A DNA stretch of 64,000 bases from Mesostigma viride (Eukaryota; Streptophyta; Mesostigmatophyceae; Mesostigmatales; Mesostigmataceae). The stretch covers positions 21,001-85,000 of the forward strand of contig RPFO01001137.1 in assembly GCA_009746045.1 (NCBI GenBank), in the 5' to 3' direction. Position 1 is the stretch's first letter. Each line of letters starts with the position of its first letter. Below the pieces are notes generated by a model that ran no database searches, was not told the DNA's origin, and was given only the letters and a program-made list of their open reading frames with translations. A program made the position numbers and the translations under genes. This document shows positions 24,330 to 63,972 of the stretch, in pieces.

Positions 24330-29700
<5,371 letters not shown>

Positions 29701-30683: not shown

Positions 30684-33600
30684 ATGGCACTCGTCGAAGC
30701 ATGTCGCAAGGGAGACGCTGTCGCTGTGGAGTCGCTCCTTTCGGCTGGCGAGCCAGTGGACCACCTGGTGGACAGGGTAAGAGGCAGGCGGAGGAGCCTG
30801 TTGATGGTTGACAATATGAAATCCAGTGTTACCTGCCCCAATCGATCACATTTATACTACCTAAACGTAGTACGTAACTGTAGAGGGAGGGCTGGCTGAC
30901 CACCGTCACGGACGTAATCGTCCTGCTTCCATTACTTCGACGTCTGGGCTGTGGACACTGGCCAAGGGCACTTTGGAGTACCCACACTATGTTGGCGTGG
31001 TAGCTGTGGTTGGATAAGTACTAGTGCAGCGGATTCCTCATGGTAGGTAATGGTTTGCCATGCTTCCCATGCAAGAGTGTCAGAACAGGAATCTAGACTT
31101 GAAGGCAGCATGCACAAGTGCAACATTTGTACTGGCAGTCGGTGGAGGAACTCCTGGCAGTTGGCCGATGCATTTCTGGCCCAAGCACTGAGTCTGCCAG
31201 CAGGATTGTCGGGGACGTTTTCTTTCCCACAAGACAATCACCAGAGATGCCAAGACTCAATAGAGACAGTGCGATGTAATATATCTACCTGGCATAGCTA
31301 CCTTAATTAAGGTACCATACATAGCTACCTCAATTGCGTTGACTAGGGGGTATGCTAATAAAGCCTCAAGGGTACATGGCATGCAGCACCAGTGCATATC
31401 ACCCATTGAGCAGTTTGGGCCTCTCTAGCAGCCCAGCCAGTTGCCGTCCTTCGACCAACACAGTCAGCGAGGCACTGGCCGAGTCCAAAAACCTAATTTT
31501 GCCACTGAAGCATCGTAACGCATGCAGTTTTCCTGATGCTCGTTGATGTGCTATCTTTCATCCCTGGCTGGTGTGTTACACTTTGTTTCTTCTGCAGTGA
31601 AAGATTTGGTGCGACAATATTTGCTGTGATCATATGCATCTGCTGTGTTGCGTTCATGTGGTATTGGACCTCACTGGGTTCAAATTCATGGTGCCTGGTG
31701 CCCAGTTCGGCAACACCACCCCGGTTGCTTGTTTGACGACACCATTCTTACTTCCTTGTTTGGCAACGCCACCCGTCTTGCTTGGTGGTTGCTTGGTGAT
31801 GCGACCGCCCTGTGCAACAACGCCATGCTGCACCTGGTGGCACGGTGTCAATCGTTCTTGTGCTGTGCTTCCATGGCTAAGGGATCGTTCTTGCCTAGTG
31901 GGACCTGTGCCCCAGCTTGATAACTCCATCCTTCCTTGCTTGTTTGACAACACCAAACCGCCTTGCCTGGTGCTATTTTTGGTAACAATGGATGCCCCAG
32001 TTTGACAACACCATCCTCCACCTGGCCGCGGCCAAGGGACACGTCGCCGTGGTGGATGTGCTGCTGGACTTTGGCGCCGCGCTCAACGCACGAGAGCTGA
32101 TGGTGGGTCGCGTTGTTATAGTGAACTGAGCTCATGGTGAGTATTCATTACAACCTAGTTAAAACAGCTCATCGCAAGTTTACAAAGTACTTCTCTAGTA
32201 GTGGCAAGTCGTAATCACGCAGTAACAATGCTGGGCCTTGGGACCACGCTCAACGCACGAGAGCTCATGGTAACAGTTCAATAGATAGCAGCAATATGAT
32301 AATAGTTATTAGAGGAATAATATGATCGATACATGTAAGGAAAATGATTAGATACATGTAAGGGTAAGGAAAATGATTAGATACATGTAAGGGTAAGGAA
32401 AATGATTAGATACATGTAAGGAAAATGATTATATACATGTAAGGACATTGATTAGATACATGTAAGGCAAATGATTAGATACATGTAAGGGAAATTATTA
32501 GATACATGTAAGGGAAATGATTAGATACATGTAAGGAAAATGATAAGATACATGTAAGGGAAATGATTAGATACATTTAAGGGAAATGATTAGATACATG
32601 TAAGGAAAATGATTAGATACATGTAAGGAAAATGATTAGATACATGTAAGGAAAATTATTAGATACATGTAAGGGAAATGATTAGATACATGTAAGGGAA
32701 ATGATTAGATACATGTAAGGAAAATGATTAGATACATGTAAGGAAAATGATTAGATACATGTAAGGGAAATGATTAGATACATTTAAGGGAAATCATTAG
32801 ATACAAGTGCATCAGTTGCGTTGGCCAGGCACATGGCTGGTCGCTCATGGGGGCCTCAAGGGTGGGGTTTGGGGGTTGGGGTTTTGGGGTTTGGGGTTTG
32901 GGGTAATAAACATTTCTTTGATGGTTCATGGAATGCGGAGTATTAGTACAGTGGCGCTTACAGCTGGATGCTCCTAGCTGCTAGGAACAAGCGCAAGAAG
33001 CACGCGAAGTTCTTTGCAGCGAAACCGCTTAGGTCTTGCTCTGATCGCTTGCCAGCTACGTACAAGGCTACACACTTTCAACTCCGTTCATCTCCATCAT
33101 CCTGAACAGCTTGATGAATGCGGTTATGGTAATGGCATGCGCGAGCTACTGTGGTCCGGGCTCTCCCGACTTCTGGCCTGCGCTGGTTGTCTCATTGAGC
33201 GTGTGGTCACTATAGTATGTACATGTATGGTAATGCCATGGTATGTATATGGTAATGCCATGCCTGCGCTGGCTGTCTCATCGACAATATGGTCACTATA
33301 ATACTTAGTATTGCCATGCCTGCGCTGGCTGTCTCATCGACAACATGGTCACTATAATACATAGTATTGCCATGCCTGCGCTGGCTGTCTTATCGACAAT
33401 ATGGTCACTATAGTACATAGTATTGCCATGCCTGCGCTGGTTGTCTCATCGACAATATGGTCACTATAGTAGATAGTATTGCCATGCCTGCGCTGGCTGT
33501 CTCATCGACAATATGGTCACTATAGTACATAGTAATGCCATGCCTGCGCTGGTTGTCTCATTGACAGTAGAGGCATCAGAAAGTTTCTAAGGGCCGGGGA

Positions 33601-36600
33601 ACATCCGTGTGGGCGTACCTTCCCTCGCAGACGCTGAGCACCCCCCTGCACAAAGCGGCACGCGAGGGCCACGCCACCGTGGTGGAGCACCTGCTGACAG
33701 CGGGGGGAGCGCTGGACTCGGAGAACAAGGTGTGTGGGGAGGAAGGTAGTGGGAACAAGGTGGGTGGGAGGAAGTGAGAACAATGTGCGCGGCAGATGCA
33801 ATCGCTCAATAGTCAGAGTAAAAGCTAGCATCGGCTCGGTCTTGACAAGCTGTGCGTTTTACAAACTACAGCGCTCCGTTCTAGGCAAGATATGTGCATG
33901 CTGTCAGCATCAAGTTTCAGATGCAAGCTGCGGTGGGCCACTGGACCCAACGTGAGAAGTAGACATAAATGAGTCAACCACATAACAAGGACGAGTAAGG
34001 AAGGTCTTCGTGATGGGTTTCGGCCGTAAAATGAGGTAGACTGCGGACGTGCAGCGTGTGTGTCTACTGAGCAAGTAGCTGCTCAATGTACTAAGTTCTC
34101 TGCCTTCATTCTTCCGTGGCCTCATGGGTGTTGTCAGCAACCGTGCGCACGGCGTCAGCCGCATGCGTGATGTCAGCAGCAGACGTTTTCCCCCTGGCTG
34201 CCGAGGAGTTCTCAGCATCACGCCCCTGCGTGGCCATTTGGAAGGCACATTATTCGGGCAAGCGCGGGTCTAGTCTTGACAGTGCGCATCTATAGCAAAT
34301 GCGTGGCTAGCCCAGATGTCAAATGAGACAACCAGCGAAGATATGTATTCCGGACTTGTGACTATAATCTAATCAATACATATAATCCATAGTAGTATAT
34401 ATTTAAAAATATAATTACTAATATAATCCATATCAATATAGTATAAAATATAATCCATGTATATAATGCATGTGTTACAGAGCGAACCAGCCACAATCCA
34501 TCTCATGTCATAAGTCCATCGATCGAGGACAAAAAGGTGTGATGAGAACAATGTGATGTGAACTGTACTTTTTCTAATACTCTTCCGTCCCGTTTTCTAA
34601 TATTCTTCTGACCCTTTTTTCTAATATTCTTCCGTGCTTTTTTCTAATATTCTTCTGTCCCTTTTCTAATATTCTTCTGACCCTTTTTTCTACTATTCTT
34701 CCGTGCCTTTTTTCTAATATTCTTCTGTCCCTTTTCTAATATTCTTCTGACCCTTTTTTCTACTATTCTTCCGTGCCTTTTTTCTAATATTCTTCTGTCC
34801 CTTTTTCTAATATTCTTTGGTTCACTGGGCTGGCTGCCTGCATATCGTGCGCGTGCTCTCCTGCACCGGAGGCATTTCCACCCAGATCTGTTGGGCCTGG
34901 ATGACATGGCTTGACGTAAAGCTGTTCTTTTACTAGTAATTGCTGATGTCTTCCTGTTCACAACGTTTTGCCACTCACCGGTTTACCTTCCCGCGGGGCA
35001 CAGTCGGGCAATCGGCCGCTGCATGAGGCCGCGGAGACGGGTTCGGTGGAGGCGATGAAGGTGCTGCTGGATGCTGGCGCACGCCCCGATGCCACCAACA
35101 AGGTAAAGCGAAACGCGGGGATAAAGAGATGATTAGAACAGGTGCTGCTGGATGCTGGCGCACGCGTGGATGCCACCAAAACGTAACTTGAAGGGCCCAT
35201 AGTAACAAAGTATAATTTGCTAAGTTATCAAAGATAGGGGATCAAACAAACGGCTCTGCAGAATATAATGGCTGCGGTGGTTGTCTTGTGGCCACTGATC
35301 TGCTCGCGCCGATGTTCAAGGATGAAAGCACGCGACTGCTGATGGGTTGGCGGAGCGAGACTCACTGACTGGCTATCACAAATAGATTGCGAATGTGCCC
35401 ATAGGTTGACAAACAACAGACACACAAGAAGAGAGCCGTACGCATGCGTGCCCCCCCCCCCAGCCTCCACCCCACCCCACCCCACCCCACCCCACCCCAC
35501 CCCACCCCACCCCACCCCACCCCACCCCACCCCACCCCACCCCACCCCACCCCACCCCACCCCACCCCACCCCACCCCACCCCACCCCACCCCACCCCAC
35601 CCCACCCACCCCACCCACCCCACCCACCCACCCACCCCACCCCACCCCACCCCACCCACCCCACCCCACCCCACCCCACCCCACCCCACCCCACCCCACC
35701 CCACCCACCCCACCCCACCCACCCCACCCCACCCCACCCCACCCCACCCCACCCCACCCCACCCACCCCACCCCACCCCACCCCACCCCACCCCACCCCA
35801 CCCCACCCCACCCCACCCCATCCCACCCCACCCCACCCCACCCCATCCCACCCACCCCACCCCACCCCACCCCTCACCCACTGGTTGCCAGCTGGTGCAA
35901 ACTATTGCTCTACTGCTTATCATCGCACGCTGTCCTCGTGTTTTCGTGGCCTGTATTTTGTACTCTTGTTCTTTATTCTCCTGCCATACTTTCTCTGAAC
36001 TATCTATTTCAACAACAACAAAAAAAATAATTCCAATGATAAGTACCATTAGAAGCAGCAGTAAAAGTACTGACTGGAACATCTGCGCTTGTCTTCCATG
36101 GGCCCCTCTTGTCTGAACCGCCTTTCCGTCCCCGCAGCTGGGCCTGTCCCCCCTCCACTGGGCATCCTGGATGGGCCATGCGGCCGCCGCACGCTTGCTG
36201 CTGGACCACGGCGCAACCATCTCGCTGCGCGACGAGGTAGGAGACTGGGTAATGGGTGGTGGGTGTTCGCCGGTGCCCCACAGGGATTCATTAATTAAGC
36301 CCAATAGGGATGAGTGGGGGACGCACGGTACCTTGGCCATGCACACGGTGCTGGCGCATCCATCGCACGGCGCGATGACTACTTTGGTTACACACCTAGC
36401 GTTCCTAAGATGAGTACAACCTGACACAGGGTGTACCTGCCCTTAAGAACACTAAGCTGCAACTGTAAAGATAGCCGATCACAGCATTGCTGCTTGTGCA
36501 TGCCCCTCGGTGCTAAGGCCTCGTGTTTATAGCCTCAATGACGCGAATTACAAAAAAGGCCGCGATCGAGGTGTGTGCCCGACCAAACTTCTTATTACTG

Positions 36601-39600
36601 GCCATAGGATTGACTTGTTCTGTGCATCTTGAGTGGCTTTGTGGCGACCTTGTGATGCCGATGGGTCATCGCTTGGAAAGCAACGAGGCACAACCTGTAA
36701 TGAATGCAACAATGCGTCCATGCCATTTCCATGGCACCCTGGGGTCAGGTACCTGTTTCTGTTTTGATGGAAGGCCTTCGTGGTTGTCGGGGGGGTGGGG
36801 GGGATGAGCAGGAAGGGGAGGCGCCCCTGCATTATGCTGCCGAGTATGGCCAAGAGGAAGTGCTTTCTCTTCTGCTCTCGGCGGGAGCTGAAGTGGACCC
36901 CTTAAACAAGGTCAGCCTTTCTCCCAGCGCAATCATTTTCTTGCAAATGCTCTGATGGCGTGTTTGTGCAGCTGTAGCAGACATTCCCACATGGATGCCC
37001 TAGCTGGCTTCAGCCCACGTGTAGCGCTGCTTGGCACTCAGTGTTACTGTACATACCTTGCTGTAACCGGACATACCTTGCTGCACATGTGGTTAAATGT
37101 GTCGGCTCCTCACTGAGTCGTACATCCGTGGGTTATTTATATCAATGCGCTGGTCGTACATGGCAGCATAGCGCAGGCAATACAGTGCACGCAACACAGA
37201 CAGCTGTGCAATAGCGCAGTGCCACAGCCGTGGGCAATAGGTAGTCCCAATGAGCAATGCCCGCTCCCTCTTTTCGATGCTCTGAACACAGACAATCATT
37301 TGATCTTTTATTGCCCATGGGCCTACCGCCTCATTGAGAGATCGATACGTGTACCGGTGTCATGAGTGTGCCATGGTATACAATACCAACTTGTCACCTA
37401 GTCGGTTGGGGACTGCTTCATTATTTGTATCGTGTGTTACCAAGGCAAACTGACGAGGCAGCCCGAGAACGTATTGTTTGCTCGGCATCGTAATTGACCC
37501 AGTGCTAAAATAAATCCCTGGATTAACTGGCCATGTGTAATGTGAAGTCTCCTGGAGCATCGTACCACCTAATGAGATCTACTATCCGCTCCTGGGTTTC
37601 GTTTCTCTGTGCCTTTGTACGACCTCTCTTCTTGCCTGTTTCCGTGCCCCGGCTCTGTGCCCGTTTTCATGTGCCTCCTGTTGTATCTTCCCACAGCTCT
37701 CCTAACAACTTCTCCTAATAGAGTTTCCCAGATCATTTCCTCACAAACCTTGTTCTTTGTGTTCCTTTGTCCCTATTTCGTTCGTCACCAGAACGGCAAC
37801 ACCCCTCTGCTTAAGGCCGCACGCAACGGCCACACCGAGTGCATACGCGCGCTGCTTGATGGTGGGGCGAACCCGCTGCACCAGGAGCAGTGGGTGCGTG
37901 TGATTTCTAGCTCAATCCTGCACGCTGCGTTGGCCTTTTTCAGTGCTGCACTAGAGCAGCATTAGTGCTGGACGTGTGTCAGTGCTAATTAAACCCGTCT
38001 GACTCACTAGTGCCACTGGCATCAATGCCACTCTGCATTTTCCCCCTCGTCAAGGTGCTCTCAGATCGTCTCCATGAATGGTTCAGGTCTACCAGCCGCT
38101 CACTACTCTAAACCAGCAGAACTTTGAACTTTGTACCTACGCAGAGATTTTTGAAAAGCCATACCTTCAGCTGTTGTTTAATAGTAGTAGATTCATAAGA
38201 AAACCCCCTATCGGCTATTCAAGACCCTCAGACCAGAGTTAGGGTGGCCTTGCGAACCGGTATTAGCAGCTCAGAACTCGTGTGTTGATCATGCAGACAC
38301 CATTGCGCCTTCCAAAAACCGAGAACCATGGTTTTGCAAGGATCGCGTGGAATCCGACTGTTAATTAGTTCATTTATTGATTGACCAAAGAATTAATGTG
38401 GAATCATGACGCTTGCTCCGCTTGACGTTACTGCTGTCAGTCGTGCACCGGCGTGATTCTTGCTGGCCTTGCATCGGCTCGATTTTAACCTTTGGGCACT
38501 GGCTCAATCTGCCTTCCGTCGATGGCAGGGTGGCTGGACGGCACTGCATCTGGCCGCGTACAAGGGACACCTGGCGGTGGCGGAGCTCCTCTTTGAAAGG
38601 GGCGCGTCGAGCTGCCTTGCCGTGCGGGATAAGGTGAGTGCTTGCTTGATGTGTGGCGGGGGGGATGTTTGCGGTATTCCTTGTCGTGCGAGATTAGGTG
38701 AGGGCTCGCCTCGTCCCTGTCGGTTTTCTACTGCGCCCTCCTTCCCTGTGCGGGAGGGGGGTTGGGTTGGGGTTGGGGGCTGGTGGGGAAATTCATGAAG
38801 TCCTCGGGAACTCCTGTGAAGGTGGAGTGGTAGACGATGGGTAACCCACCTGAATGGATGGCTCATTGGCTCGACCCTGTGAGGGGGAGCCTTACGTGTT
38901 TTGCCATCGGCGCATCATCCGCTAGTGTACAACGCACAGGAAGCAGTCGGTCGAAGTGCGAGCCTTAACATCACGTTGTCCTTGCAATTCGTCCTTCCAT
39001 GGACGCGTGTCAGGGGGCATGTCAGGGATCATGTCCGTTGCTGTGATCGACGAAAAGGGCTCCACCAGAATCGGCATTGGGCCCGGTGTCGCATCCACAT
39101 CCGGGGGGCCTTGGGGGGAGCACATGGCGCGCAGGATGGGAAAGACAGCGATTCGTCTATTTGCATTACCTACGGGTGGGGTCAATATGATCATAGAGGT
39201 GCATGGTCCATGGTCCACTGTTACTTGCATGCTGCATGTGCTGTGTGGCAGAACGCGCTAGGAAAAGTCTATTCACAAACAGCTCGTTTCTAATTCCTTG
39301 GCATGCATGTGCTGCGTGGCAGGACGGGCGAACACCGAGGGAGCTGGCGAGGGAAAAGGCGGTCATTGATTTCTTGGATGCACATGCAAACGGTACGAGG
39401 GATGACATCGACCTGCAACCTACCTTTCCTCCCCCTCCCCTCCTGTATGCATCATGGCAATTTTTTCTCCACAAGCACCATTCTTCGTGCAAAAATGGAC
39501 CTGGGGAATGGGCTGTTGCTACAGACGTTCTGTGGCCCGTTTCTCAGCTCACTGCCGCTGGCAAACGTGCATGGATTGCCAGTGGCGAGGCAGGGCTGCA

Positions 39601-42600
39601 GGGCTTTCATGGTCAGGACAGCTTTTTTTCTGGATGGCATCCGATGTCCAATCGAGGACAGGTCTAGACTCCATTTACCGAAAAGCACCTGCCATCTTGG
39701 CACTAATGGCGACGGTTGTGAATTTCGCATGTCGACAGTTTGCCACGTCATCGCAGCCAATCTTGCTTCCATATGACACCGACATCATACTATCCTGCAT
39801 GCTAGTATATAGCTGATGGTCGCAGGGAGATACGAAAGCACTTCATTTAAAGTCTCCTACAACAAGCTACTTGTGGCAGTTCCTTTCTCTCCATTATTTT
39901 CATCTTTATTCCAATTCAGTAACAAGGTTGCGTTGCTGCTGCTCCATTCTTGCCGTGGACGCAGATTTGCCGGCGGCCCCCCCGGCTCCTGCCAAAGGCA
40001 CGCTCCGCGAATACAGCGCCGCACAGCTGGACGCCGCCACCTCATCGTTTGCCAACAAGGTGTCCGAGGACGCCCTCTTTGAGGTGTGGGAAGGGACGCT
40101 GGACGGCAAGCTGGTGGCGGTCAAGCGGGCCAGGGGGGTCAACTCGCTGGCACAGATGTCCCTGGACAAGGAGGCCCAGGTACTGTGTGTGTGGAGGAAC
40201 TTCTATACATTTTGTTCTTATGACTATCATCCCATCATCAAAAAGACGTACGGAAGCACATGTGCAAGGGCTCATTTAACTGCCAGATTCAACCAATCCA
40301 TGTTCCATGTAGTGCTTATCCATATTATCCTTCCTGGACAAAGATTCCTCTAGAATAGAGCTGGCATTATGAGCCTAATTGCATCAATCCAGATACGTCT
40401 ACAGTAGGTTAAGTGCACCTGCTTTTCTGGGGCGAAGGGACGAGAACAGGGCTGGGGGCAGGGCACAAGGATACCTACGGGATAACCGTTTTGTATCACT
40501 GTGGGAAAACAGAAACGGGAGATGGTGGAGGTGGTTCGGGGGCGGGAAGGAGGGGAAGGGGCGCAGGAGGGAATAAGTAGGCATGGAACCTAAATGTTGG
40601 AATAGTGGCCACGTACTGCAATTAGGCACCAACCTGGACACCATGTGGGAGAGAGGCTTTGCCTGGAAGGCACCTGGAAGACATATGCACTCTGCTTGTG
40701 CGCTGGCCAGTGGAGCTCTGGCAACGTTTGACTGGAAAGTAGTTGTCTATCCTGGCAGTAGATATGTGCCAAATGTGCTTAACATCCCAAACCCTGCTTC
40801 TGCTCCGTTTTTGGGGTAGTGGGTAAACCTGCTCGTATTTGGTAGCCTACTGCCTATTCGCTTTGGACTAATATATTAGAGGACAAGGACTTATTAGGAG
40901 AATTCGCAAAGCTCGGGATACGTTGGGAAATTTCGTGTGACGGCGCTGTTTGTCGTACGACAGTAAAAAGTTTCCAGGCTGAGTGTCGGATGTATTTCGA
41001 GCTTGGTGCTGCGCGATGTTTTTGGGCGTGAGCTACGCCAAGCGTCAACCTTGGCCAACTTGTGGGCCGAATTGTATGCATGACGTATGTGACTACATGG
41101 TCTAGTGTTTGGCATGGTGTATGCCATGATGTGGATTTAATTTCATGTGTGTGGAGTCGCTCCACATGAGCGTGGCGTTAGTAGTATGAGCGCCACGCCG
41201 CGCAAGTGTTTTGGTTTTCACGGTGCTAGTGATTTCGGTACAAAGCCTGAGCCTTAGTAGCCTTGCCCGCCTGGGAAAGAAATCAGTACTGGTAGAGTAC
41301 CCGGCGCGGCGCTACATTTTCAGTCCTTGTGCATGCATGTGTGTGCATGCGCATGTGTGTCTCCATGAATCCGACCATCTAGAACGCGCCGCTACCAATC
41401 GGGCGGCTGTTGTGCGTTGAGTGTTGCGACCTGCCTTTGGCGGCGTAGCATTTAGCCTGGACCTAGCTCCTTTGCAACTCACGCTTATGGCCTTATTTTC
41501 ACGCATTCCAGCATGGGCGTGAACATTAAGCGTCGGCATTTTGTGAATGGATGATGCGTTCCTTTAAAGCATTATTAGTAAACCAAAGATCATTTCCTCC
41601 GATCAGCTGGTTATGGCAAAATGCGACATGGTATCGGGTTGACTGTTTGGGAAGGTTGCTTGTGTTGGGGACGCCCATTTCTTTTGTGCAGGCTCTAGGC
41701 CCTCAGCTTTCACCTTTTGAGCCAAATCTTCTGGATTGCTTCTCCCCCTGGGAGAGGTGCAAGTTTTTTTTGAAGGAGCCATCTGCAGTGGCCTGGGCTG
41801 TGGTCTACTAAGGCTCAGGCTTTGTACCGAAATCACTAGCACCGTGAAAACCAAAACACTTGCGCGGCGTGGCGCTCATACTACTAACGCCACGCCCACG
41901 TGGAGCGATGCCACACACATGAAATTAAATCCACATCATGGCATACACCATGCCAAACACTAGACCGTGTAGTCACATATGTCACGCATGCAATTCGGCC
42001 CACAAGTTGGGCAAGGTTGACGCTTGGCGTAGCTCACGACCAAAAATACCGCGCAGCACCAAGCTCGAAATACAACCGACACTCAGCCTGGAAACTTTAT
42101 ACTGTCGTACGATAAACAGCGCCGTCACACGAAATTTCCCAACGTATCCCGAGCTTTGCGAATTCTCCTAATAAGTCCTTGTCCTCTATACGACAAACAG
42201 CGCCGTCACACGACATTTCCCAAAGTATCCCGAGCTTTACCAACTCTCCTAATAAGTCCTTGTCCTCTATACGACAAACAGCGCCGTCACACGACATTTC
42301 CCAAAGTATCCCGAGCTTTACCAATTCTCCTAATAAGTCCTTGTCCTCTATACGACAAACAGCGCCGTCACACGAAATTTCCCAAAGTATCCCGAGCTTT
42401 ACAGATTCTCCTAATAAGTCCTTGTCCTCTATACGACAAACAGCACCGTCACACGAAATTTCCCAACGTATCCCGAGCTTTGCGAATTCTCCTAATAATT
42501 CCTTGTCCTCTATACGACAAACAGCGCCGTCACACGAAATTTCCCAAAGTATCCCGAGCTTTACCAACTCTCCTAAAAGTCCTTGTCCTCTAATATATTC

Positions 42601-45600
42601 GTCCAAAGCGAATAGGCTACAAAATACGGGCAGTTTTACCCGCTACCCCAAACACTCCCACCTGCCATCATCGTGCCCTATTCAAGACCACATCTTATTC
42701 ATGGCCTAACGTATCAGTATAATCATGGCCTAACTAAGCAGTTTCGTCTCCTGCCATAATAGCTGCCCCCCCTGCATCGCGTCACCTGACCAAACCATCC
42801 TGCCCCTTTCTGGTGTCTTGTCGCCGAACCCCTTTCATCCCATCGTTTCTTTCGCTTGTCGCCCACCCCGTCCTTTGTCCTTATCACATGCTTTCACCCC
42901 CCTGCCCCAGGTCTACGCCCAAGAGGCTGCCCGATCCTGCCCCTATTTGTCGCGGCTCATCGGCAAATGCGTGTCCCCGGACGGCCACATGGCCTCCCTC
43001 GTGTTCGAGCGGACAGCTGGCGCCCGGCCGTTGTCCGATGTGCTGGCGACCGACACAGGCCGGGCTGCACTCCCCTGGTCCGCACGCGTGGCGTCCCTGC
43101 TGCATGCGGCGCGGGGCTTGCAGTGCCTGCACACCGCCGGCAGTGGTCGGGGAGCGGATGGCGCTGATCCCACGGTACGCATGTCCATATACTGTAGTAG
43201 TATGCATACTATATAAACCCTATAGTGGTATGAGTTCCTATTTCGGGCTTCATTCATGTTGCCGATCCCACGGTACGCATGTCCATATACTGTATGCGTA
43301 CTCGATGCACCGCATAGTGGTATTGTAACATCTGTTTGTGCAAGGGCGAATGCTAAAGCCACAGTCAGTAAACCACCTGACGTGTCGGGTGGTTTGACAA
43401 ACGGTCGAATTTGGCCAATGTCTGCTAGTGCAAGGGTTGTATCGAATACTGGACCGAGTATCACCCGAATACCAAATCGAAAACCAAATCGAAAACCAAA
43501 TCGAAAACCAAATATATTTGGATACGGCGGACACAGCGCCGACCCGAATATATTCGAATTCGAATACGGCAAAGGTGATCATGAACAGGATACATTCCAT
43601 TCGAATACGAAAGAACCTGCAGTTAAAGAAACTGTGGCTGAACTGTGGTTCAGCCTGCACTGATTGATATCTACAGAGGAAGTAGTCATGTTAATCAATA
43701 GGTTTTCGTTGCTGGTTATGGATACCAGCACAGAATGCACGAAGCACGTGAGAGCCGTCGCCGAAGGTGCGAGGACACAGGTGCAGGGAAAGTGGTGCTA
43801 CCAAGTGGCAGCGCCCTGCTCGTTATATACTAATTGTATATTTTGTGCCTTGACCAAGTTGCCTCACAAGTATGCTGAGCAATTTAAGCTCCTCTATAAG
43901 CTAATGAGCTCCTCTGTGTGAGTTGAGCTATTCCAGTTTGAGTTTTGAGTTTGGTGACTGTTGGGTGAGAAGAGCTTACATAGAGCTGGGCTCTGTTATG
44001 CTGAGAGCTGTGATGCTCTGAGGGCAGTATTGCTCTGTGTATATATATATGTATATTACCGTGTATTTTATGTGATGCTCTGTCATGCAGCATGATGTTT
44101 GGTTGGGGGTTTGCCCTCAGTCTGAGGTTTGTCTCAACCAAAGGGATTTTATAGGACGGGGTTCGATTCCCTGGGGCTGCTTAGGCGTAGTTTCCCGGAT
44201 TGGCTGGCCCATCAACCTTGCTGGTGAGGTGGCGACAGGTCCCCCTAGTTTTGTCCCAGACAGAGGAAGGGGGTTTGTAATGTGCTTAATATATTTTGTG
44301 ATGTGCTATTTCTCAGTCCATGGTGGGCGCCAGTTCTGATAACTATCAATGTCTACCTGATAAGGTCTTGTGGGTAACTTGTGGGGTTCCAATCAGGAGC
44401 CAGTATGGTGATGATGCCATTTTGGTCATTATTCTGGTCAGCCACACGCTGCTATTCAAACGTTATTGTGGTTCCAGAGACAACGAGCGGTAACAGCCGG
44501 GACGTTAAGACTTCCGATCCTAACAAAACTATACTTTTAGACGAAGCTTGTCCCAAAAAGAATTGCTGCTGCGCTACTTGCAACGCTGACGTACATGTGC
44601 ATATCTGTTTGCACGGAAAAAGGTAAATTTACCTTTTTGTCATTCCGTGCAAACAGATATGCACATGTACGTCAGCGTTGCAAGTAGCGCAGCAACAATT
44701 CTTTTTGGGACAAGCTTCGTCTAAAAGTATAGTTTTGTTAGGATCGGAAGTCTTAACGTCCCGGCTGTTACCGCTCGTTGTCTCTGGAACCACAATAACG
44801 TTTGAATAGCAGCGTGTGGCTGACCAGAATAATGACCAAAATGGCATCATCACCATACTGGCTCCTGATTGGAACCCCACAAGTTACCCACAAGACCTTA
44901 TCAGGTAGACATTGATAGTTATCAGAACTGGCGCCCACCATGGACTGAGAAATAGCACATCACAAAATATATTAAGCACATGACAAACCCTTCCTCTGTC
45001 TGGGACAAAACTAGGGGGACCTGTCGCCACCTCACCAGCAAGGTTGATGGGCCAGCCAATCCGGGAAAATCCGCCTAAGCAGCCCCAGGGAATCGAACCC
45101 TGCCCTATAAAATCCCTTTGGTTGAGACAAACCTCAAACTGAGGACAAACCCCCAACCAACATCATGCTCCATGACTGAGCATTACATAGAATACAGTAT
45201 TATACATATATATACACAGAGCATTACTGCCCTCAGAGCATCACAGCTCTCAGCATAACAGAGCCCAGCTCTATGTTAGCTCTTCTCACCCAACAGTCAC
45301 CAAACTCAAAGCTCCAACTGGAATTGCTCAACTCACACAGAGGAGCTCATTAGCTTATAGAGGAGCTTAAATTGCTCAGCAGACTTGTGAGGCAACTTGG
45401 TCAAGGCATCAGCAGGATTCTCAGAACCTGGAAGATGTTGGATATCTACCACACCTGCCAACTCCTTCAATAGGAGATAATCAAGATCTTTGCTTCTGGC
45501 CGACTGTCTCTGCACAAACTGGACCATGCCCATGTTATCTGAAAGTATCAAAGTCTCCAACTGAAGAGTATGAGGAGTCACTGAAGCCATAGCTAGCAAC

Positions 45601-54600: not shown

Positions 54601-54912
54601 CGGCGCTGCTGGCGTCCCGAGGGTCCTCATCGGCGACTGGAGCAGCGCGGCAGGGGTTGCCGGGGGGGGTGACGTCGCTGGCATACCTCGACCCCCAGTA
54701 CCTGACATCGGGTGAGTGGGTTATAGCGTGCAGGTATTACGGTGTGGGGATCCCTAAACCCGCGGTAATGGATGTCGGGGGGGTGGCGATAGCGCACGGG
54801 TGATACTGTCTGGCAACTCCCTCATAGAACTGTAGTACCTGACATCAGGTGAGTGACCCATGCCATTTCAGACATCAATGTGTGCACTGTGATCTTTCTC
54901 TCTCCCTCTTCC

Positions 54913-54968
<56 letters not shown>

Positions 54969-57900
54969 CCCCCTCTGTGTGTGCGTGTGCATTTGTGCGT
55001 TTTACAGGGTGTGCATCCCTCGTAATGCTGCCCTTCACGCACCCTCGATGCCCCCTCAATGCCCCCTTTATACCCCCTCGATGCCCCATTTACGCGCCAC
55101 CCTCCTTACGACCCCTTTATGCCCCACCCTCCTATGACCTGTGACCATGTGCTGCATCTCAACCCACGACCCCCCCCCCCCCTCTCGCCCCCAAAACCTC
55201 CCAAACCTTCTTTACACCCTCACCCGTCCTTCCCCCAATCCTCCTGACCCCATCGTCCCTCCCCCCCCCCCCCCCCCCAATCCTCCTTAACCCCCCTGGG
55301 CTGTGGCCTCCCACAGGCACCCTGTCCCCCGCCTCGGATGTGTTTGCGTTGGGTGTGGTGGCGCTCGAGATGCTCACAGGGGCCGCGCCCGCAGCACCGG
55401 GGCTGGTGGCGGCCGTGCAGGTGGGTAATACACAGTAGTAATGATTGTGCGTAGTGTGGTGGGCATACTTCAAGTATAGTTGCGCTGCCATAGTATCCTC
55501 TCTAACATACTATAGCAGTGTTGGGGATACTATAGCAGTGCCGGAGCTGGTAGCGGCCGTGCAGGTGGGGACACTATATCTACAAAACACATAGTGCTGT
55601 ATACTCCTACTATGCCAGGGACCAATCACCTCATTGATTCAACAATACCTTAATTGTGGCCCAAATTCATGCACTGTACCTGCAAGGGATGTATTAATCG
55701 AGTTCATGTGCGTGATTGGGCCAATTGTTTGGATGAGACGCCTCCGTGTGCGCGGCACCATTTGTACGTTGCGGGACGACGTTGGGCCATGACAGCCGTT
55801 GGCCGTGACAGTCTTCCAACTAGACAATGTAAGAGTAAAGGCAAGCCCTTTGCACAACCTCTCATCCAGGCCCTCGTGGCCTTTTCCTTCTTACTGTCAT
55901 CATCATAAGGAGCATAGAATGCTAATCTTTCTATCCACGTCTGGTGGACACGCGAGCAAGCAACCTAAAACAAGTCATGTTAACACTGAGGAATTTCCAT
56001 CTCCACCCATCCGAGCCAGGAGCTATTCTAGACACGTGATCGCGAGGTAAAGATACTTTTGCAATCAAAAGGAAAGCTGTCACTCTTCCTCGTTACATTT
56101 GTATCGGATGTTTTCTTTTTGAATTCACGTTTTGCGGATGGCAAGTACTCGTGCACAGAAAGCTGCTTTTGCCAAGGAATCCTCTCATGTTGTTGTCGTG
56201 ATGTCGTCGCTTTGAGAGCGATAGGACCTTGACGACACAATCGTATTAAACTATTACGTTGAGTAAAACCAAGGACGAGATATCCGGTGACGGCTCTTGT
56301 AAAGACACTTGAACTGCCGAAGGAAAGCAGCAACGAAGAAAATACATAACAGAGCTACGCATCTTTGTGGATGGTGGGCTGACTATCATCATGGCATTTC
56401 CAAATTCGCCAGCATGCCAATCCACCAACCCAATATGCGGCGCATACCATAATGTAGAGGAACATACCACCTGCCTCCAAGGGAGATAGCAATCACAGTC
56501 TGCCCCCACTCCCCTGACGAATGACAAGGAGTATGACCTTTCTGTAGGAGTATATCTTATACACATCGCGAAATACGGTCTACTCTCGTGTTGTGTGGCC
56601 AGGATAAGGGAGTCAGACCTGTTGGGGGGGCCTGAACTACCTCTTGTTGTTCCCAACCTGCTCCCATGTGGGGGATGCAGTCAGCTGGGAACCTCGAGTG
56701 TGGCTGGAGTTTGTATCCTTCCCGTGAGGCTTCCCTGTATCTTGGGTCGTCTTTAATGCAGAAATGTTTTTGGGGGGGGGGAGAGTGGATCCCAGATAAA
56801 CCGTAGTTAAGGGCCCCCCAACAACTGTACCTTAACCATGCAGGGTGGGCACTCTGGAGGGGTCTTAGGTGAAGTAGGGCAGCTTAAGGGCATGCTAATG
56901 GAAAGCATCAGCACCAAAACTGATGTACCCCAAGCTCGGCAGGGTCCCCGGCAAGAACGTGAACCCCCTAGTAGAAATGGGCAGGTCGTATGTATATGTC
57001 ATTGTGCCAAATACTGATGCGTGCAAGGCAGCTCAAGGGTAGTTGTAGACTTTTTCAGGAGTCAGCCACCAAACATACACCTACAAACTCAGGCAGGACC
57101 GCCAACACCAAGTGTCACAACTACCAACAGTCAACAGGAGTGGGCAAACACAGCTCATGTCTAGGCGCTGCAGCCGCTGCACGTAAAGCTCAATCATAGA
57201 TAGGCTTTCTAGTGAGCAGGAGCAAAGCACAGCCATGTCCATACAAGGCAAGATACCATGATGATAGACTTGTCAATACTCTCACAGGAGGAGTTCCAGC
57301 ACAGACTGCAAAGAAACGCTCAACGCCCATTGGAAAGGACAACAATCTGCATGCAGCTGTCACAAGGAGATATCGCTCGCAAGGTATTACTCCCAATCCA
57401 CTGCACTCAGGTAGACCAATGGAGCACCATAAATCCAACAGATCCCATCATCCAGTATTGTAGCTTCGTTGATCCATTACCACCCATATCCCAACAAGGG
57501 ACAGTTCTACCGAATACAGACAAGATGCTAGGTGCCCCCACGCTAGTAGTCACTTCCATACAACCACCATCTGCAGGGTTAGTGATCCTTTGCATTAGAC
57601 AGAAGCGCAAACAAATTGGTGAGGACCTAAGGCAGCCACATCCAATTCAACACTCGAAGTCTCTAGCAGATGGCGTAAAGGATAAGATAACCAGCCATCT
57701 TGGCATCAGTCATTCAAAGGGAAGTTAGCCCACAGGGTATGTCCATGTGTGCTTCTGCCTATATGCCATGACCCAAACTTGTGTGGGATACCATAACAAC
57801 ACTTTGTGTGTCAATTTTTATCTTTTTGGTATGCTTAGCTATGCATAGTTTGTAAGGATGATCTAGGATGATCTATAATACCACAACATATTAGGTCTTT

Positions 57901-59670
57901 GTGTTTATATTGTGTGGTATGCATATCGCGTGTTGTGCACCATACTATGCATGGTCCGTGTGCTAGCAGCGGCGGATGAGCGCCAACGCCTACGCCTCGA
58001 GCGACCAAGGCGGCGAGCCGAGCAGTGGCGCACTCGACCCGTCAGCCCGTTGGCCCGCCGATGCCGCCACCGCGGTGGCCTCCCTGGCCCTACGCTGCAC
58101 CTCCCTGATCCCCGCCGGCCGGCCATCGCTGGCCGCTGATGTCATCCCCGCACTGGAAGGATTGCTCCCTGAGGGCAGCAGGTATTGTACTTCCTTCACC
58201 CGCGAAGCTGTGTATAATTATATGACGACCTTACAAAGTGGAATGCTGCAGTTGGGAAACTTTAGCAGATCGGGTGTATGATCACTACAAACTGAGGGCA
58301 GCAAGTACGATGTAGAATAGCCAAGGCTGCATACAGTCACTGTATAATTTGAGGGCAGCGGGTACATTTAAGACGAGTCGAGGCTGTATATGGTCACTAG
58401 GATTAAGCAGCAGGGTAGCAACCTTGCATTATGTTGGCGTCATATGGCTACTAAGTTTTTGAGGGTGGCAGTGACATAATACTCCTAGACACTCAAAAAG
58501 TGGACTTGAGGTAGGGGGATGCAGCGTGTTGCCCCAACAGAGGCACGAGATTCAATTCGCATAAAGGGAGGTAAAACGTTTAAAGGAGCAGGGCAGGAGC
58601 GGGAGGGGGGCGGGGAGGGAGGGAAGGAGGGGAAGGGAAGGAAGTGGGGCATGGATTGGGAGCTTGGCATGTGAGGTGAATGGAATTTTTTGTTGACAGT
58701 GTGAGGATCATGGGCATTTTTTGTTGTTGGCTATAAACTGGTTCACTGATAGACATTAGTAGTATCTTTGCTCAGGGCCGAGTTCCATTCAGCACGTCGC
58801 AGCACTCCGCGTTTTACAAGAAGGCATGTGGCTAGTGCTACGACGACAATGTGGCCAGTGCTACGACGGCAAGAGGCGGTGGTGGTGGCCATGGGCATGA
58901 CCAGGAGGGTGTTCACAGGGGGCACACAAGCCCATGCTAGGTGCATGAGCCTCGGCACAGCTTCACAGCACTGGAAAAAAACCATTGAAACAATCGGGGT
59001 TGATACTTAGCAAAGTGACCCCAAAGTCCCCGGGGGTCACCCTCGCAAAGCGTTGGTCATATTATTTGTATTGCGCTGCATAGGATTATGGAAGGGGTAC
59101 AGGATGTGGAATGGGTAGCACGGCGCATCTGATTTGGTGCAAGGTTACAGCTGACTAGAGTAAAAAGGTGAACAGAAAGAAAGTTGGGCACTTTGTTGCC
59201 ACGTCATGAATGTTGGGGCACCCGTAAGGCTTTATTGTGGCGTGTTCATGCCGGTCGATTGTCAAAGCGTATGCCTTTTTCGCTTCCTGAGGGCATGACC
59301 GGCCACCCTGCCCGCTCTCCTCTCTCTCCCCTTCCCCCCACTCAATATACTCACAAACTTGCACCTGATGCTCCATCTTTATGTTCTCTCCTCTACCCTT
59401 CCACAACGGCAATGAGCCAACAGCGCACGAGCGCCGGAACTTGCTGCTCCCCCAGCCCAGGTGACCAAATCAAATGCAGGGGCAGCGACCAACGCAGATG
59501 GGTCCAAGCCAGCAGCAAGCAAGCCTGCACCACCACCGAGGCCCTCAGAAGCAGCAGGAAAGAAACTAGGCTTGCCGGATGGGGCTGAAAAGCCTGCCAA
59601 GGAGGATGTACCGGATACTGAGCCAAAGTCCGTCTCGTCCCTAATCCAACGGTTCCAGAACGCTGTCTAG
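30684..59670 (+). CDS. Ankyrin-repeat protein with C-terminal pseudokinase domain, 15 exons
   Basis: Exons: 30684-30776, 32001-32102, 33631-33729, 35004-35102, 36138-36236, 36812-36910, 37792-37893, 38529-38633, 39323-39392, 39965-40179, 42911-43174, 54483-54711, 55316-55420, 57970-58181, 59424-59670. Phases join throughout if one extra G in the GGGGG run at 55378-55382 is discounted, giving about 712 residues. Exons 1-9 encode ankyrin repeats, one per exon (for example TPLHKAAREGHATVVEHLL). Exons 10-14 encode a TKL/RLCK-like fold: VAVK lysine at 343, helix C glutamate 359, YLDPQY activation-segment end, SDVFALGVV helix F and RPSL near the end. The glycine loop is absent, HRD is HGA (455-457), the catalytic-loop asparagine is A462 and DFG is GVG (476-478). 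It therefore probably cannot transfer phosphate and would act as a scaffold. The last exon is a Pro/Ala/Lys-rich tail ending SLIQRFQNAV. Confidence 0.82.
31700..31960 (+). repeat. Series of degraded copies of the exon 2 acceptor region
   Basis: At least five segments resemble the real junction CCCCAG|TTTGACAACACCA (31996-32013): near 31700 (GCCCAGTTCGGCAACACCAC), 31729 (TTGTTTGACGACACCATTC), 31758 (TTGTTTGGCAACGCCAC), 31815 (TGCAACAACGCCATGCTGCA) and 31945 (TTGTTTGACAACACC). They lie in intron 1, 40 to 300 bases before the true acceptor. Confidence 0.65.
32225..32275 (+). repeat. Partial copy of exon 2 end and donor in intron 2
   Basis: CTCAACGCACGAGAGCTCAT followed by GGTAACA repeats the end of exon 2 (32081-32108) with few changes, including a potential GT donor. 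It is about 170 bases downstream of the real one. Confidence 0.8.
32329..32812. repeat. About 23-bp minisatellite in intron 2
   Basis: Around twenty units of GATTAGATACATGTAAGG plus a short A-rich link, with length variants. It lies wholly inside the intron. A separate G/T-rich stretch with TTTGGGG repeats follows at about 32868-32905. Confidence 0.92.
33170..33570. repeat. 56-bp tandem repeat in intron 2
   Basis: GCCATGCCTGCGCTGG recurs at 33257, 33313, 33369, 33425, 33481 and 33537, an exact 56-bp period, with an older degenerate unit from about 33170. It sits just before exon 3. Confidence 0.93.
34565..34818. repeat. Pyrimidine-rich TTTTTTCTAATATTCTTC minisatellite in intron 3
   Basis: About ten units of roughly 23-25 bp, alternating CTGTCCC, CTGACCC and CCGTGCC variants, so a higher-order unit of about 70 bp is visible. 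Confidence 0.88.
35142..35186 (+). repeat. Partial copy of exon 4 end and donor in intron 4
   Basis: GTGCTGCTGGATGCTGGCGC at 35142 repeats exon 4 from 35061, an offset of 81 bases, and ends CCACCAAAAC|GTAACT, matching the real CCACCAACAAG|GTAAAG. Confidence 0.88.
35463..35872. repeat. (CCCCA)n array in intron 4
   Basis: CCCCA pentamers with some CCCA tetramers on the sense strand over about 410 bp. Frames through it are artefacts. Confidence 0.95.
40810..42651. mobile_element. Foldback-like element with long inverted repeats in intron 10
   Basis: Left arm about 40810-41265 and right arm about 41804-42651 are inverted copies: TTGGGGTAGTGGGTAAA at the left pairs with TTTACCCGCTACCCCAA at the right, and the match runs inward to CTTTGTACCGAAATCACTAG. 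Interior 41266-41803 has no recognisable protein. The right arm is lengthened by an 81-bp tandem repeat. Long arms around a short non-coding core resemble foldback or MULE-type non-autonomous elements. Target duplication not resolved. Confidence 0.75.
42177..42600. repeat. 81-bp tandem repeat in the right arm of the foldback element
   Basis: CCTTGTCCTC recurs at 42177, 42258, 42339, 42420, 42501 and 42581. The left arm has a single unit (about 40880-40960), so the amplification happened on one side only. As 81 is a multiple of three, the array keeps frames open on both strands, which is not evidence of a gene. Confidence 0.92.
43612..43830 (-). repeat. 3' LTR remnant
   Basis: About 220 bp matching the right-hand end of the 5' LTR (53110-53330), with TTTCTTTAAC as the shared end. 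The missing LTR portion was lost where the palindrome 43855-45408 formed. Confidence 0.7.
43855..45408. repeat. Palindrome, arms about 775 bp
   Basis: Left arm 43855-44628 and right arm 44632-45408 are inverted copies with few mismatches, meeting at GGTAAATTTACC. The arms cover the end of RNase H and the downstream non-coding part of the retrotransposon. Confidence 0.9.
45333..45830 (-). CDS. Copia-like RNase H and C-terminus
   Basis: About 165 codons to TGA near 45333. YVDSSMDSS, SECRAI, LSDNMGMV and NPADALTKL mark the D-E-D-D catalytic set and the Copia-type ending NPADxLTK. The last 25 codons are repeated in inverted orientation at 43844-43921 as part of the palindrome. Confidence 0.8.
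   Translation of the reverse strand: MSLPFSLDIYVDSSMDSSRQVSKVRGRSAGLFVLLQHRPSLVAWYNPLQRRAAVSSDVSECRAICEGIQSSLYIKELLLAMASVTPHTLQLETLILSDNMGMVQFVQRQSARSKDLDYLLLKELAGVVDIQHLPGSENPADALTKLPHKSAEQFKLLYKLMSSSV
45842..46777 (-). CDS. Copia-like reverse transcriptase
   Basis: About 311 codons. RLKLRFVIKRK matches the finger region, VLLDFKRAFLKGD is palm motif A (Copia DVKTAFLNG type), and SLHGDDLHLIAP carries the catalytic double aspartate, with HGDD in place of the usual YVDD. The frame runs into the RNase H section after a short gap at 45831-45841. Confidence 0.8.
   Translation of the reverse strand: MQFDCCQPVNEVPPYSTRLKLRFVIKRKEVGGVYSPCASSSNEYRGTGDLLGEELYTPGMLHDTWRILLCLYVGMLNQGADMSSVLLDFKRAFLKGDPSVAQQVWHCETPFHVPVPVAWQAELQSSYLLILKGLEGLRSSPIIWRLTLEDFLTKHCGLKVSSVDPCLLLGRWHDLPVYASLHGDDLHLIAPTKWLSQFVPIINDAFPLGKELWQKPGEAVTFCGMQATLVQEGSQWLIKLQAGNDYKSTILQSVPEVMTSSIAPELKGKLAWYGSICGPDMMVHSRSPDDVLILEEPSQIIAHVNSLLVLL
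46786..47574 (-). CDS. Retropepsin-like (aspartic protease-like) region between integrase and RT
   Basis: About 262 codons beginning with GTG inside the integrase stop. Residues near 90 read AVLEVDTNAEVSVMG, close to the D-T/S-G-A active-site loop with the glycine replaced by asparagine, and about 65 residues later PIILGQNFL matches the I-L-G-x-D-F-L end of retropepsins. In ordinary Copia elements the protease lies between gag and integrase, so the position is odd. It may be a relocated protease, a decayed one, or an unrelated tether domain. Confidence 0.45.
   Translation of the reverse strand: MTTLPVGHDVIPDHHVQAGSNPRVSPGQTPGSVNSPSLGQADVVPSSLTKHRGVGLKDVVLAMQKAKQGPRVSKLSQLEESEDAVLEVDTNAEVSVMGSQHTGQRQVLSPSCAWVSDFSGRTHIMVLGEVLVPFMGEDVTFLVLEDYDGPIILGQNFLSSPRIVVASDKLRKFGWGSIPLVNFKTSLASVFNSVKAIKNVQWPEDQIPVASSLVMPAALHPSSIGITKRSLAAHSPLSYDQLVQEMSSPLMFEAWRLAFAKA
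47571..48569 (-). CDS. Copia-like integrase
   Basis: About 332 codons. The N-terminal zinc site HHMFGHA ... CSC (HHCC type) is followed by the core with CDIQEI and VGVDRYTKYK, a later QCDLEF, and GVVERTIRELK around the expected glutamate, giving a D-D-E set. It ends at TGA with a one-base shift into the next frame (overlap at 47571-47574). Confidence 0.75.
   Translation of the reverse strand: MGSMVVSERAVPSTSPVFNKMSLVSNIALRLHHMFGHAAQALQFARRLGGTSLFNAVKQVAEACSCRLVAPKPKKSHVRQPVLQPGYVQCDIQEIRKLILLVGVDRYTKYKVLELLQDKSKPCLVAGLQAIRSRMKPVIQLQCDLEFECCMGNEDLPELFIVHRESHGSQGVVERTIRELKTILLTEKKIPRLVPAIIKTAWLRSVEDRLNVRASMYVGEVPVTPLSLHLRELPTEVEQAWKDSLMFKFAKLRQKDKGWSVLKPVVGQRVIVWKEPKLAGKRGSWHPGVVTRVELAGHKCWVKMEDPPQNVHRLSWSYVRLRGAEAEAVLLM
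48895..49345 (-). pseudogene. Copia-like gag, C-terminal part with zinc knuckle
   Basis: Reads KYVGGKKQADKAKEKQKEK, a Gly/Pro/Arg-rich linker and then a zinc knuckle CYFCRQQGHIRKDC (C-x2-C-x4-H-x4-C), the nucleic-acid-binding motif of retrotransposon gag. It resumes gag precisely where the N-terminal part stops at 51864. It reads through to a stop near 48930. Confidence 0.8.
49346..51843 (+). mobile_element. Inverted partial copy (LTR, leader, gag) of the same retrotransposon
   Basis: Plus-strand LTR (49346-49964), leader frames (about 50047-50580) and frameshifted gag (50760-51843, including CYFCRQQGHIRKDC near 51750). It interrupts the minus-strand gag. The target TTCTTGCCTCCCAC and the following nine bases are present on both sides (49317-49339 and 51841-51863), a 23-bp duplication with one mismatch. 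Confidence 0.8.
51864..52500 (-). pseudogene. Copia-like gag, N-terminal part
   Basis: A minus-strand frame of about 170 codons down to 51864 has the helical gag pattern (LKDHWTVKDKDITVRHLKGY near the start, later EGETWDEFITDFEVFLDDKR and AAKVKDHFRGKYVGGKK). At KYVGGKK it is cut by the inverted copy; the continuation of the same protein is found at 49345. Confidence 0.7.
53110..53766 (-). repeat. 5' LTR of the Copia-like element
   Basis: Starts TGCCTGGCAAGC at about 53766 (minus strand) and ends TTTCTTTAAC at 53110. An inverted copy is at 49346-49964 and the last 220 bp recur at 43612-43830. Confidence 0.65.
54834..54856 (+). repeat. Copy of exon 12 end and donor in intron 12
   Basis: AGTACCTGACATCAGGTGAG repeats the real junction AGTACCTGACATCGGGTGAG (54697-54716) with one change, 137 bases downstream. 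Confidence 0.85.
55541..55567 (+). repeat. Copy of exon 13 end and donor in intron 13
   Basis: GAGCTGGTAGCGGCCGTGCA then GGTGGGG matches the real exon end GGGCTGGTGGCGGCCGTGCA then GGTGGGT at 55401, 144 bases upstream. Confidence 0.85.
55568..57969. other. Remainder of intron 13, no gene recognised
   Basis: About 2.4 kb of non-repetitive intron sequence without any coding or RNA feature I can identify. A few frames up to about 156 codons are present on the plus strand near 57258-57728 but lack recognisable motifs or splice context. Confidence 0.4.
58290..58480 (+). repeat. Degraded copies of the exon 14 end in intron 14
   Basis: GAGGGCAGCAAGTACGA (58293), GAGGGCAGCGGGTACAT (58351) and a weaker GAGGGTGGCAGTGACAT (58459) resemble the real GAGGGCAGCAG|GTATTG at 58171. 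The rest of the intron to 59423 shows nothing further. Confidence 0.6.
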
Positions 59671-60813
59671 TAGAGGAGTTTGAAAACTGACTATGCAGCA
59701 CTGGCAGGCAATTGGTTGCCTGCATGGTTGTTCCCCTCGCCTAGTAAATTGCTTAGCTTGAAATCATATATGCCCGATGCTGGTGGGATTGTCGTTTCAC
59801 TTGTGTTATAAATGTCAAAATTACAGGGCCACTGCGCACATTGCGCAGGGTGAGGCAGGCATTCTTGAAGGGTAATTTTTTGGGGCCTGCCAGCGCTGTC
59901 ACTCATCGTTCTGTTTGCATGGTACAACAGAACTTTAGGCTTAATATAATATGCATGTAACTGCGTCATGTGGGTGCTGGAATACAAAGTAAAAAGAACC
60001 TAAGTAAGTGTGTGAACATGCACTGAAGGCATGCCACGGAGCACCTGATGAGGGACTTTTCTACGCGGATACTTCGATCGCCCGCGAAGGCAAGTGGCGC
60101 GACTCACTCGCCCAGGTCTGGAGTCGTGCAAGATAGCAACTCCGCGTCATCCGGACTATCCAAGACGACTGTACGCTCGGCCATGATGGCGGGGGTGGGG
60201 GTAGGTTGCATGCTAACCCCAAATAGCCCAGGAGAATATACAGGCTTCTCCCGGAGCCTGAGGGGTAATTTAGGGGCATACCCAGGGTTCACCCACAACC
60301 CCAAAAAGAACCTCCAACCCCTGTACACATCGATCTAGACGGAGGGGGGCCGCGCCCTCGACTAGCATGCACTAGTTTCTCTCTCTGCCACAGGTGGGCA
60401 GGCCACAGAGTTACCGCTAGCTCTCTCCACATCATGTGTGCGTGCGGGCGCAACTGTACGTGGGTAGAATACAACAAGAAATAGGTGGACGCATAGCAGA
60501 TGTCAGGTGGGCTCGAAGCGTAGGCTTAGCCGCAAGCCGATGGCCACAAGGAGCCAGGGCTTATCTAAGTTACTATAAATCTGATTTAATGTCATTCCAA
60601 GACGTGCAATAATGCCTAAGCTATCCCATTTATGCAATTGACCCCAGAGAGACTACTAGCTTGAATGCTCTATCCCGGGGAATCCTCTTTCCCGCAGTCA
60701 TCTGCTTATTGAATAATCCCAGGGGTGCCCGGGGGGGCTTCTGCAGTTTGTTGTTGACATATCGGTCCCTGCCTCGCCAGTACACGTGACATACTAGCTG
60801 CTAACAAGTCAAG
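59671..60813. other. Intergenic region between convergent genes
   Basis: No gene recognised. TGTAA at 59956, about 285 bases past the ankyrin gene stop, is a possible polyadenylation signal. AAGGCATGCCACGGAG at 60026 matches part of the TIR element at 22161, so a fragment of a related element may lie at about 60000-60330. Confidence 0.35.
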
Positions 60814-63873
<3,060 letters not shown>

Positions 63874-63948
63874 CTGTTTCATGCGTGGGCGGAGGGGACA
63901 AGCAGCAATGCGAATAGAGAAAAGAGTCGTGTAAGTGGGTATGCTTGT

Positions 63949-63972
63949 ATCTCCGCGCTAACTTCCTGGAGG
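63949..63972 (-). repeat. Copy of the RF1 exon start and acceptor upstream of the real exon
   Basis: On the minus strand CCTCCAG|GAAGTTAGCGCGG resembles the true AAACAG|GAAGCTAGCGCCG at 63873, 92 bases away. Using it would run into a TGA within about 28 codons, so the lower copy is the real exon. Confidence 0.8.

Follow-up and report, generated by a model that had tools for sequence, protein, structure and literature searches.

Short duplications at or near splice junctions are known from several systems, with which we compare here a set of copies in introns of Mesostigma viride. The window that we analysed, meaning the whole stretch of 64,000 nucleotides (nt) at positions 21,001 to 85,000 of contig RPFO01001137.1 (assembly GCA_009746045.1), holds three genes in which the last bases of an exon, together with the GT of the 5' splice site (donor), recur a short distance inside the following intron. 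A preliminary description of the window had drawn attention to these copies, which we call echoes; all coordinates below are those of the window.

In the portions of the published reports available to us, the systems compared share parts with this locus, and in none of them do numerous donors, belonging to several genes, recur as echoes within their introns. Intron gain by AG/GT tandem duplication likewise proceeds by a short duplication whose copy is spliced out, leaving the protein unchanged; here, in contrast, the introns pre-exist, the copy is found close to the donor instead of at the opposite end of the intron, and no further intron is created. In potato RdRp (PMC4974935) a duplication likewise runs over a splice junction, and some of the duplicated exon ends up as intron; however, a new intron arose there, at an intron-exon (acceptor) boundary, whereas here donors are mostly affected, many junctions are involved, the copies are decayed and no new intron is seen. 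The stwintrons of the fungus Lipomyces resemble our case in that a functional donor is duplicated within its intron, a duplication proposed to come from the repair of asymmetric breaks (PMC7138796); those are adjoining tandem duplications of 4-7 nt, while our strong copies are 22-52 nt long, mostly exon-derived and 64-167 nt away. Repair-mediated capture of proximal DNA (PMC2671141) also places the copy near its source, but the human cases are longer (median 147 base pairs, bp) and, in the part of the report available, no tie to splice junctions is stated. In Drosophila, tandem duplication with intron sliding (PMC2891723) shares with this locus the alteration of splice sites by local exon duplication, but yields novel intron positions; here the positions are, as far as seen, unchanged. 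A literature search over titles and abstract openings, with most subscription journals outside its coverage, returned no report of splice-junction echoes. The introns of M. viride are described as long, with a mean of 1142 bp and second rank among the species compared in the available part of that study (PMC6947507).

Enrichment of local copies at donors

The set analysed comprised 20 donors, 21 acceptors and 23 exons of three genes at one locus, namely a carrier gene (minus strand), an ankyrin/kinase gene (plus strand) and an RF1 fragment (minus strand). In the main score test, 50 exon and 15 intron bases at each donor were compared with the 500 bases of intron that follow, after masking of arrays and low-complexity sequence; interior positions of the same introns, swapped introns and antisense sequence served as controls, and pseudo-positions were excluded from the counts if many of their bases were masked or their target was short. 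Local copies were found at 13 of 20 donors with a score of at least 22, at 12 with at least 24, at 11 with at least 26 and at 8 with at least 30. The last score was reached by 5 of 1013 interior positions, by none of 20 antisense comparisons and by none of 380 swaps between exon ends and other introns, a check that the preliminary description had proposed. In a stratified draw of one interior position per intron, 8 was never reached in 20,000 draws (p = 0.00005), and the donor outscored every tested interior position in 12 of the 20 introns, with a margin of only 1-2 points for 37893, carrier 26537 and carrier 25288.

The 14-mer formed by bases -8 to +6 of each donor was also sought in its own intron and in other introns. 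Eighteen copies, involving 10 donors, were present in own introns versus 0.80 expected from other introns. Expressed per site, real donors had 0.85 copies, strong intronic GT sites 0.12, random intronic sites 0.065 and exon interiors 0.058, the random intronic sites being themselves 2.4-fold over the other-intron expectation. Among queries from within exons, limited to exons of more than 105 nt, 0 of 224 had a match. Chance as the cause is rejected by the interior, swapped-intron, antisense and 14-mer comparisons; likeness to the donor consensus alone is rejected too, intronic GT sites of similar strength being much less echoed. These results confirm that the junction echo is real and statistically strong within this window.

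Recurrence of the exon end and donor GT had been claimed for 12 named donors, and it was found at all of them with differing clarity: seven have strong copies (22-52 nt, 84-97% identity and an offset of 64-167 nt in ungapped alignment), two have moderate ones and three have copies that are weak singly. Multiple copies accompany 33729, 58181, carrier 26537 and RF1 61854; the own introns of carrier 26537 and RF1 61854 hold three near 14-mer copies each, the expected numbers being 0.00 and 0.06. The remaining 8 of 20 donors (30776, 36236, 36910, 37893, 39392, 40179, carrier 29551 and carrier 28341) have no convincing echo, 36236 being marginal with 27 nt at 81%. Given the differing sources and offsets (30-237 nt), a single repeat family is unlikely, in agreement with the preliminary description.

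Anatomy of the echoes and their possible origin

In an exon-to-intron search, 21 exons (those of the set without the first and last ankyrin-gene exons) were compared with their own gene regions at a cut-off of at least 27, antisense matches being recorded from a score of 30 up. All 15 matches were in sense orientation, in the adjacent intron, at most 300 nt away and at most 4 nt from their own junction; among these 21 exons, no copy reaching 27 was found in a non-adjacent intron of the same gene, and every antisense comparison made gave 0. Within 700 nt, exon-end probes had 0 matches in the upstream intron and exon-start probes 0 in the downstream intron. This arrangement does not support the link to intron gain that had been suggested earlier: in the AGGT model a copy of the exon end comes to stand at the far (3') end of the intron and a copy of the next exon start at its 5' end, whereas the matches found here all stay close to their own junction.

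A sliding 12-base probe gave 3 matches at -24..-13, 13-15 between -12 and +5 and 2 at +1..+12, with 0.4-1.3 expected; a slight second rise, of 4 matches, was seen at +9..+20. Homology on the intron side covers 16-57 nt in 43174, 33729 and carrier 25288, and 12 nt in 38633. The seeding of decoy donors, also claimed earlier, is borne out in that the echoes carry putative donors: GT directly follows 10 of the 13 exon-only matches and one more with a one-base shift, compared with 2 of 11 in other introns, and the mean consensus match of 20 echo donors is 6.85 of 9 versus 7.05 for the paired real donors. Of the echo donors listed, 19 of 20 lie 30-237 nt from the real donor and one lies 637 nt away. 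The public carrier and ankyrin/kinase proteins use the upstream donor, and the upstream donor is probably the one used in RF1 as well.

Taking into consideration (i) the order of exon, intron piece and copy, (ii) the zero counts on the wrong side and (iii) the clear tandem cases 33729 and 43174, a tandem type of event is supported. The explanation that we tentatively favour, at somewhat less than an even chance, is that of recurrent short direct (tandem-type) duplications that span splice junctions, are commoner at exon ends than in intron interiors, and then decay. A short direct duplication across a junction would give exon suffix, donor and some intron, then a second exon suffix and donor; as the upstream donor would stay intact and be used, the protein would be unchanged and the second copy would turn into intron. 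In the real copy, exon and splice consensus would then be maintained by selection; the echo, as well as the intronic part of either copy, would decay. The bias to exon ends may reflect either a mutational hotspot there or better retention. If the junction focus were genome-wide, it would offer a countable record of splice-site duplications, a route by which introns lengthen and decoy or shifted donors arise, and a case in which to test whether exon ends become mutation hotspots through transcription and splicing.

Several observations weigh against such a junction-focused duplication. All data come from three genes at one locus, and RF1 61854 and 58181 do not stand above all interior positions of their own introns (fractions of 0.244 and 0.051 reach their score). 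When all 23 exons are taken, exon-interior 40-mers reach 30 in 4 of 496 cases, presumably inside long echoes, and the wrong-side contrast amounts, if limited to ten short exons, to 4 versus 0, too few to decide. Among the acceptors, the score distribution as a whole is not shifted (p = 0.99), 2 of 21 reach at least 30 versus 8 of 1002 (Fisher p = 0.016), 3 of 21 reach 26, and 4 of the 5 exon-start 12-mer matches come from the single acceptor 32001. At the level of DNA, the step in guanine plus cytosine (G+C) content at exon ends, from 0.656 in exons to 0.499 in introns, was the only feature found that might account for a hotspot. With the minisatellites unmasked, local copies accompany 139 of 1320 interior positions, the score sum falls short of significance (p = 0.17) and just 7 of 20 introns have the donor as their best position. 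Finally, homology ends at 0 to +7 in six echoes (32102, 35102, 63721, 55420, 54711 and 36236); under simulated decay of units reaching 45 nt into the intron, such an edge stop has a joint p of 0.00015-0.013, depending on the indel rate.

Frequent local duplication in these introns is the chief caveat to the junction focus. Intronic minisatellites are many (32328-32805, 33245-33566, 34569-34817 and 42108-42592, with units of 23, 56, 24 or 70, and 81 bp), and the background is not fully flat, since the acceptor intron-side probe (-24..-12) has 4 matches versus 0.50 expected, 3 of them at RF1 62108, and donor intron probes at +8..+19 have 4 versus 0.89 expected. It is conceivable, if unlikely, that no focus exists at all: local duplication would be rampant throughout the introns, and only copies whose exon arm is frozen by selection would remain recognisable. 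The unmasked interior copies fit this idea, and a frozen arm does aid detection. However, it lengthens the time over which a copy is recognisable, and so raises detectability, only 1.5-1.8 fold, against a far larger excess with masking, and uniform duplication with neutral decay is therefore insufficient. Even with arrays unmasked the donor count remains in excess (8 vs 2.9, p = 0.00015), at a reduced level of about 3-4 fold. Low-copy diverged duplications are scarce inside introns, and of 15 strong local repeats located between 22 and 64 kilobases (kb) of the window, 9 touch an exon, although exons total 3635 nt. The same evidence separates two processes that the preliminary description had offered together. 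A duplication process focused on junctions is upheld in so far as donors surpass intron interiors, exon interiors and intronic GT sites of comparable strength. Relaxed selection is by itself insufficient, because duplications in intron interiors should be no less tolerable, yet low-copy ones are rare there and the gain in detection is small.

The right edge of the six echoes named above falls between 0 and +7 while their left edge ranges from -15 to -46, and the probe profile is highest at -12..+5 and drops sharply at +1..+12. This would be expected if a process reading the 5' splice site itself, via splicing RNA and not DNA sequence, wrote exon ends into their own introns, which we regard as rather unlikely. 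In a more specific version, which we find quite doubtful, pieces of nascent or spliced RNA whose end is the 5' splice site (either an exon end protected by U1, or an exon that has been joined to an AG/GT within the intron) would be reverse-transcribed into nearby breaks of the same gene. The sense orientation of 15 of 15 matches, and the far weaker echoing of intronic GT of similar strength, are consistent with it. To our knowledge, no process of RNA-linked exon-end copying has been described. Acceptor echoes upstream of exons are left unaccounted for, four copies include 12-57 nt of intron, and decay may have helped to sharpen the right edge: with units of 20 nt into the intron, the joint p under simulated decay was 0.007-0.097 by indel rate. 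The edge is thus suggestive and unproven, because units of about 20 nt with many indels could give it. Were copying by splice-site recognition true, each intron would preserve past copies of its donor in the manner of a fossil record.

That selection for decoy donors retains the echoes seems improbable to us. The conservation of GT next to the exon-only matches and the near-real consensus of the echo donors would agree with it, as would the disappearance expected of neutral interior copies, which is what is seen. Yet identity over 30-46 nt of exon is not needed for a donor, eight donors have no convincing echo, and ascertainment favours well kept copies. Moreover, reading through to the echo donor meets a stop in 16 of the 20 listed, so that use of an echo donor would usually be harmful unless regulated. 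An artefact of assembly or of mistaken exon boundaries is very improbable: the assembly is a single one and the RF1 boundaries were set by homology, but the longer copies are 3-19% diverged, the window is without N bases, and both larger gene models reproduce public proteins, their introns being bounded by GT and AG throughout.

Coordinates, acceptors and gene models

Table 1. Positions of the donor and acceptor echoes in the window.
Feature	Position	Strand	Basis
Source of echo: ankyrin exon end, donor after 32102	32062..32104	+	alignment
Echo of donor 32102, 41 exon nt + GT	32229..32271	+	86% of 43 nt, ungapped
Second short echo of donor 32102, +1 base at 32137	32129..32142	+	14-mer
Donor 33729 and tandem echoes, echo donors at 33760 and 33785	33723..33792	+	25-30 bp tandem repeat; moderate
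Echo of donor 35102	35140-35179 within 35140..35186	+	93% of 40 nt, ungapped
Echo of donor 38633	38679..38709	+	84% of 31 nt, ungapped
Echo of donor 43174	43261-43294 within 43261..43323	+	97% of 34 nt; alignable to about +57 of intron
Echo of donor 54711	54834..54855	+	95% of 22 nt, ungapped
Echo of donor 55420	55535..55569	+	89% of 35 nt, ungapped
Echoes of donor 58181	58280..58472	+	16 nt; three 12-mer matches ending before 58305, 58362, 58472; moderate
Echo of carrier donor 25288	25162..25177	-	13 nt exact; weak singly
Three short echoes of carrier donor 26537, +1 bases 26466, 26423, 26397	26392..26474	-	11 nt exact; weak singly
Three short echoes of RF1 donor 61854, +1 bases 61822, 61727, 61616	61611..61831	-	11 + 17 nt; weak singly
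Echo of RF1 donor 63721, 46 exon nt + GTGAGC	63609..63660	-	85% of 52 nt, ungapped
Further short echoes of RF1 donor 63721	63078..63091; another 63480-63493	-	14-mer
Echoes of acceptor/exon start 32001, upstream in intron: 31701, 31731, 31817, 31908, 31942	31701..31955	+	alignment
Echo of acceptor 39323	39233..39258	+	alignment
Echo of RF1 acceptor 63873	63949..63968	-	alignment

The acceptor echoes, at 32001, 39323 and RF1 63873, are additional to those of the preliminary description. The echoes of acceptor 32001 account for five matches in the local search and four in the exon-to-intron search (at least 27). In the alignment of donor 35102, the echo continues to 35186 with 44 exon nt, a one-base deletion and then GTAA. 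The stretch that holds the echoes of 58181 resembles a diverged array of units of about 58 bp, the unit being read by eye. A distant RF1 copy at 63037-63062 (minus strand) has, by eye, two bases in common with the echo at 63609-63660 that are absent from the exon, as if it were an echo of an echo.

The carrier gene is a 100% match to EukProt jgi/Mesvir1/2044/Mv14787-RA.1, and the ankyrin/kinase gene matches jgi/Mesvir1/2045/Mv14788-RA.1, Mesvir1 being a label that we take to denote Mesostigma viride, a streptophyte alga, in agreement with the two published genomes of the species (PMC6947507, PMC7027972). The joined exons of the carrier (295 amino acids) and of ankyrin/kinase (712 amino acids) are identical to these public proteins at every residue, and all junctions of both models have a GT donor and an AG acceptor. 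Since the exon joins of both genes are identical to the public proteins, 18 of the 20 donors are consistent with them, as judged on protein sequences and not on nucleotide gene models; this speaks for the exon boundaries. The two RF1 donors were placed by homology, and the fragment aligns with solved RF1 proteins across its exon junctions, with a one-residue gap 3 residues past the first junction.

In the ankyrin/kinase gene, exons 32001-38633 carry about one ankyrin repeat per exon of some 100 nt. A tandem acceptor, TAGCAG, stands at 57964-57969, ahead of exon 57970; the public protein takes the downstream AG, and use of the upstream AG would insert one glutamine. The intron at 43175-54482 measures 11.3 kb; its long open frames resemble Copia elements by eye, and none of the four frames tested there matched a Pfam family. 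Inverted arms of 348 nt at 44271-44618 and 44643-44990 are 99% complementary around a 24 nt spacer, and two more inverted pairs flank them, forming a large nested palindrome. Elsewhere in the window, the open frame at 10688-12259 carries the transposase domain PF13843 (DDE_Tnp_1_7, E-value 3.8e-40), a domain associated with piggyBac elements.

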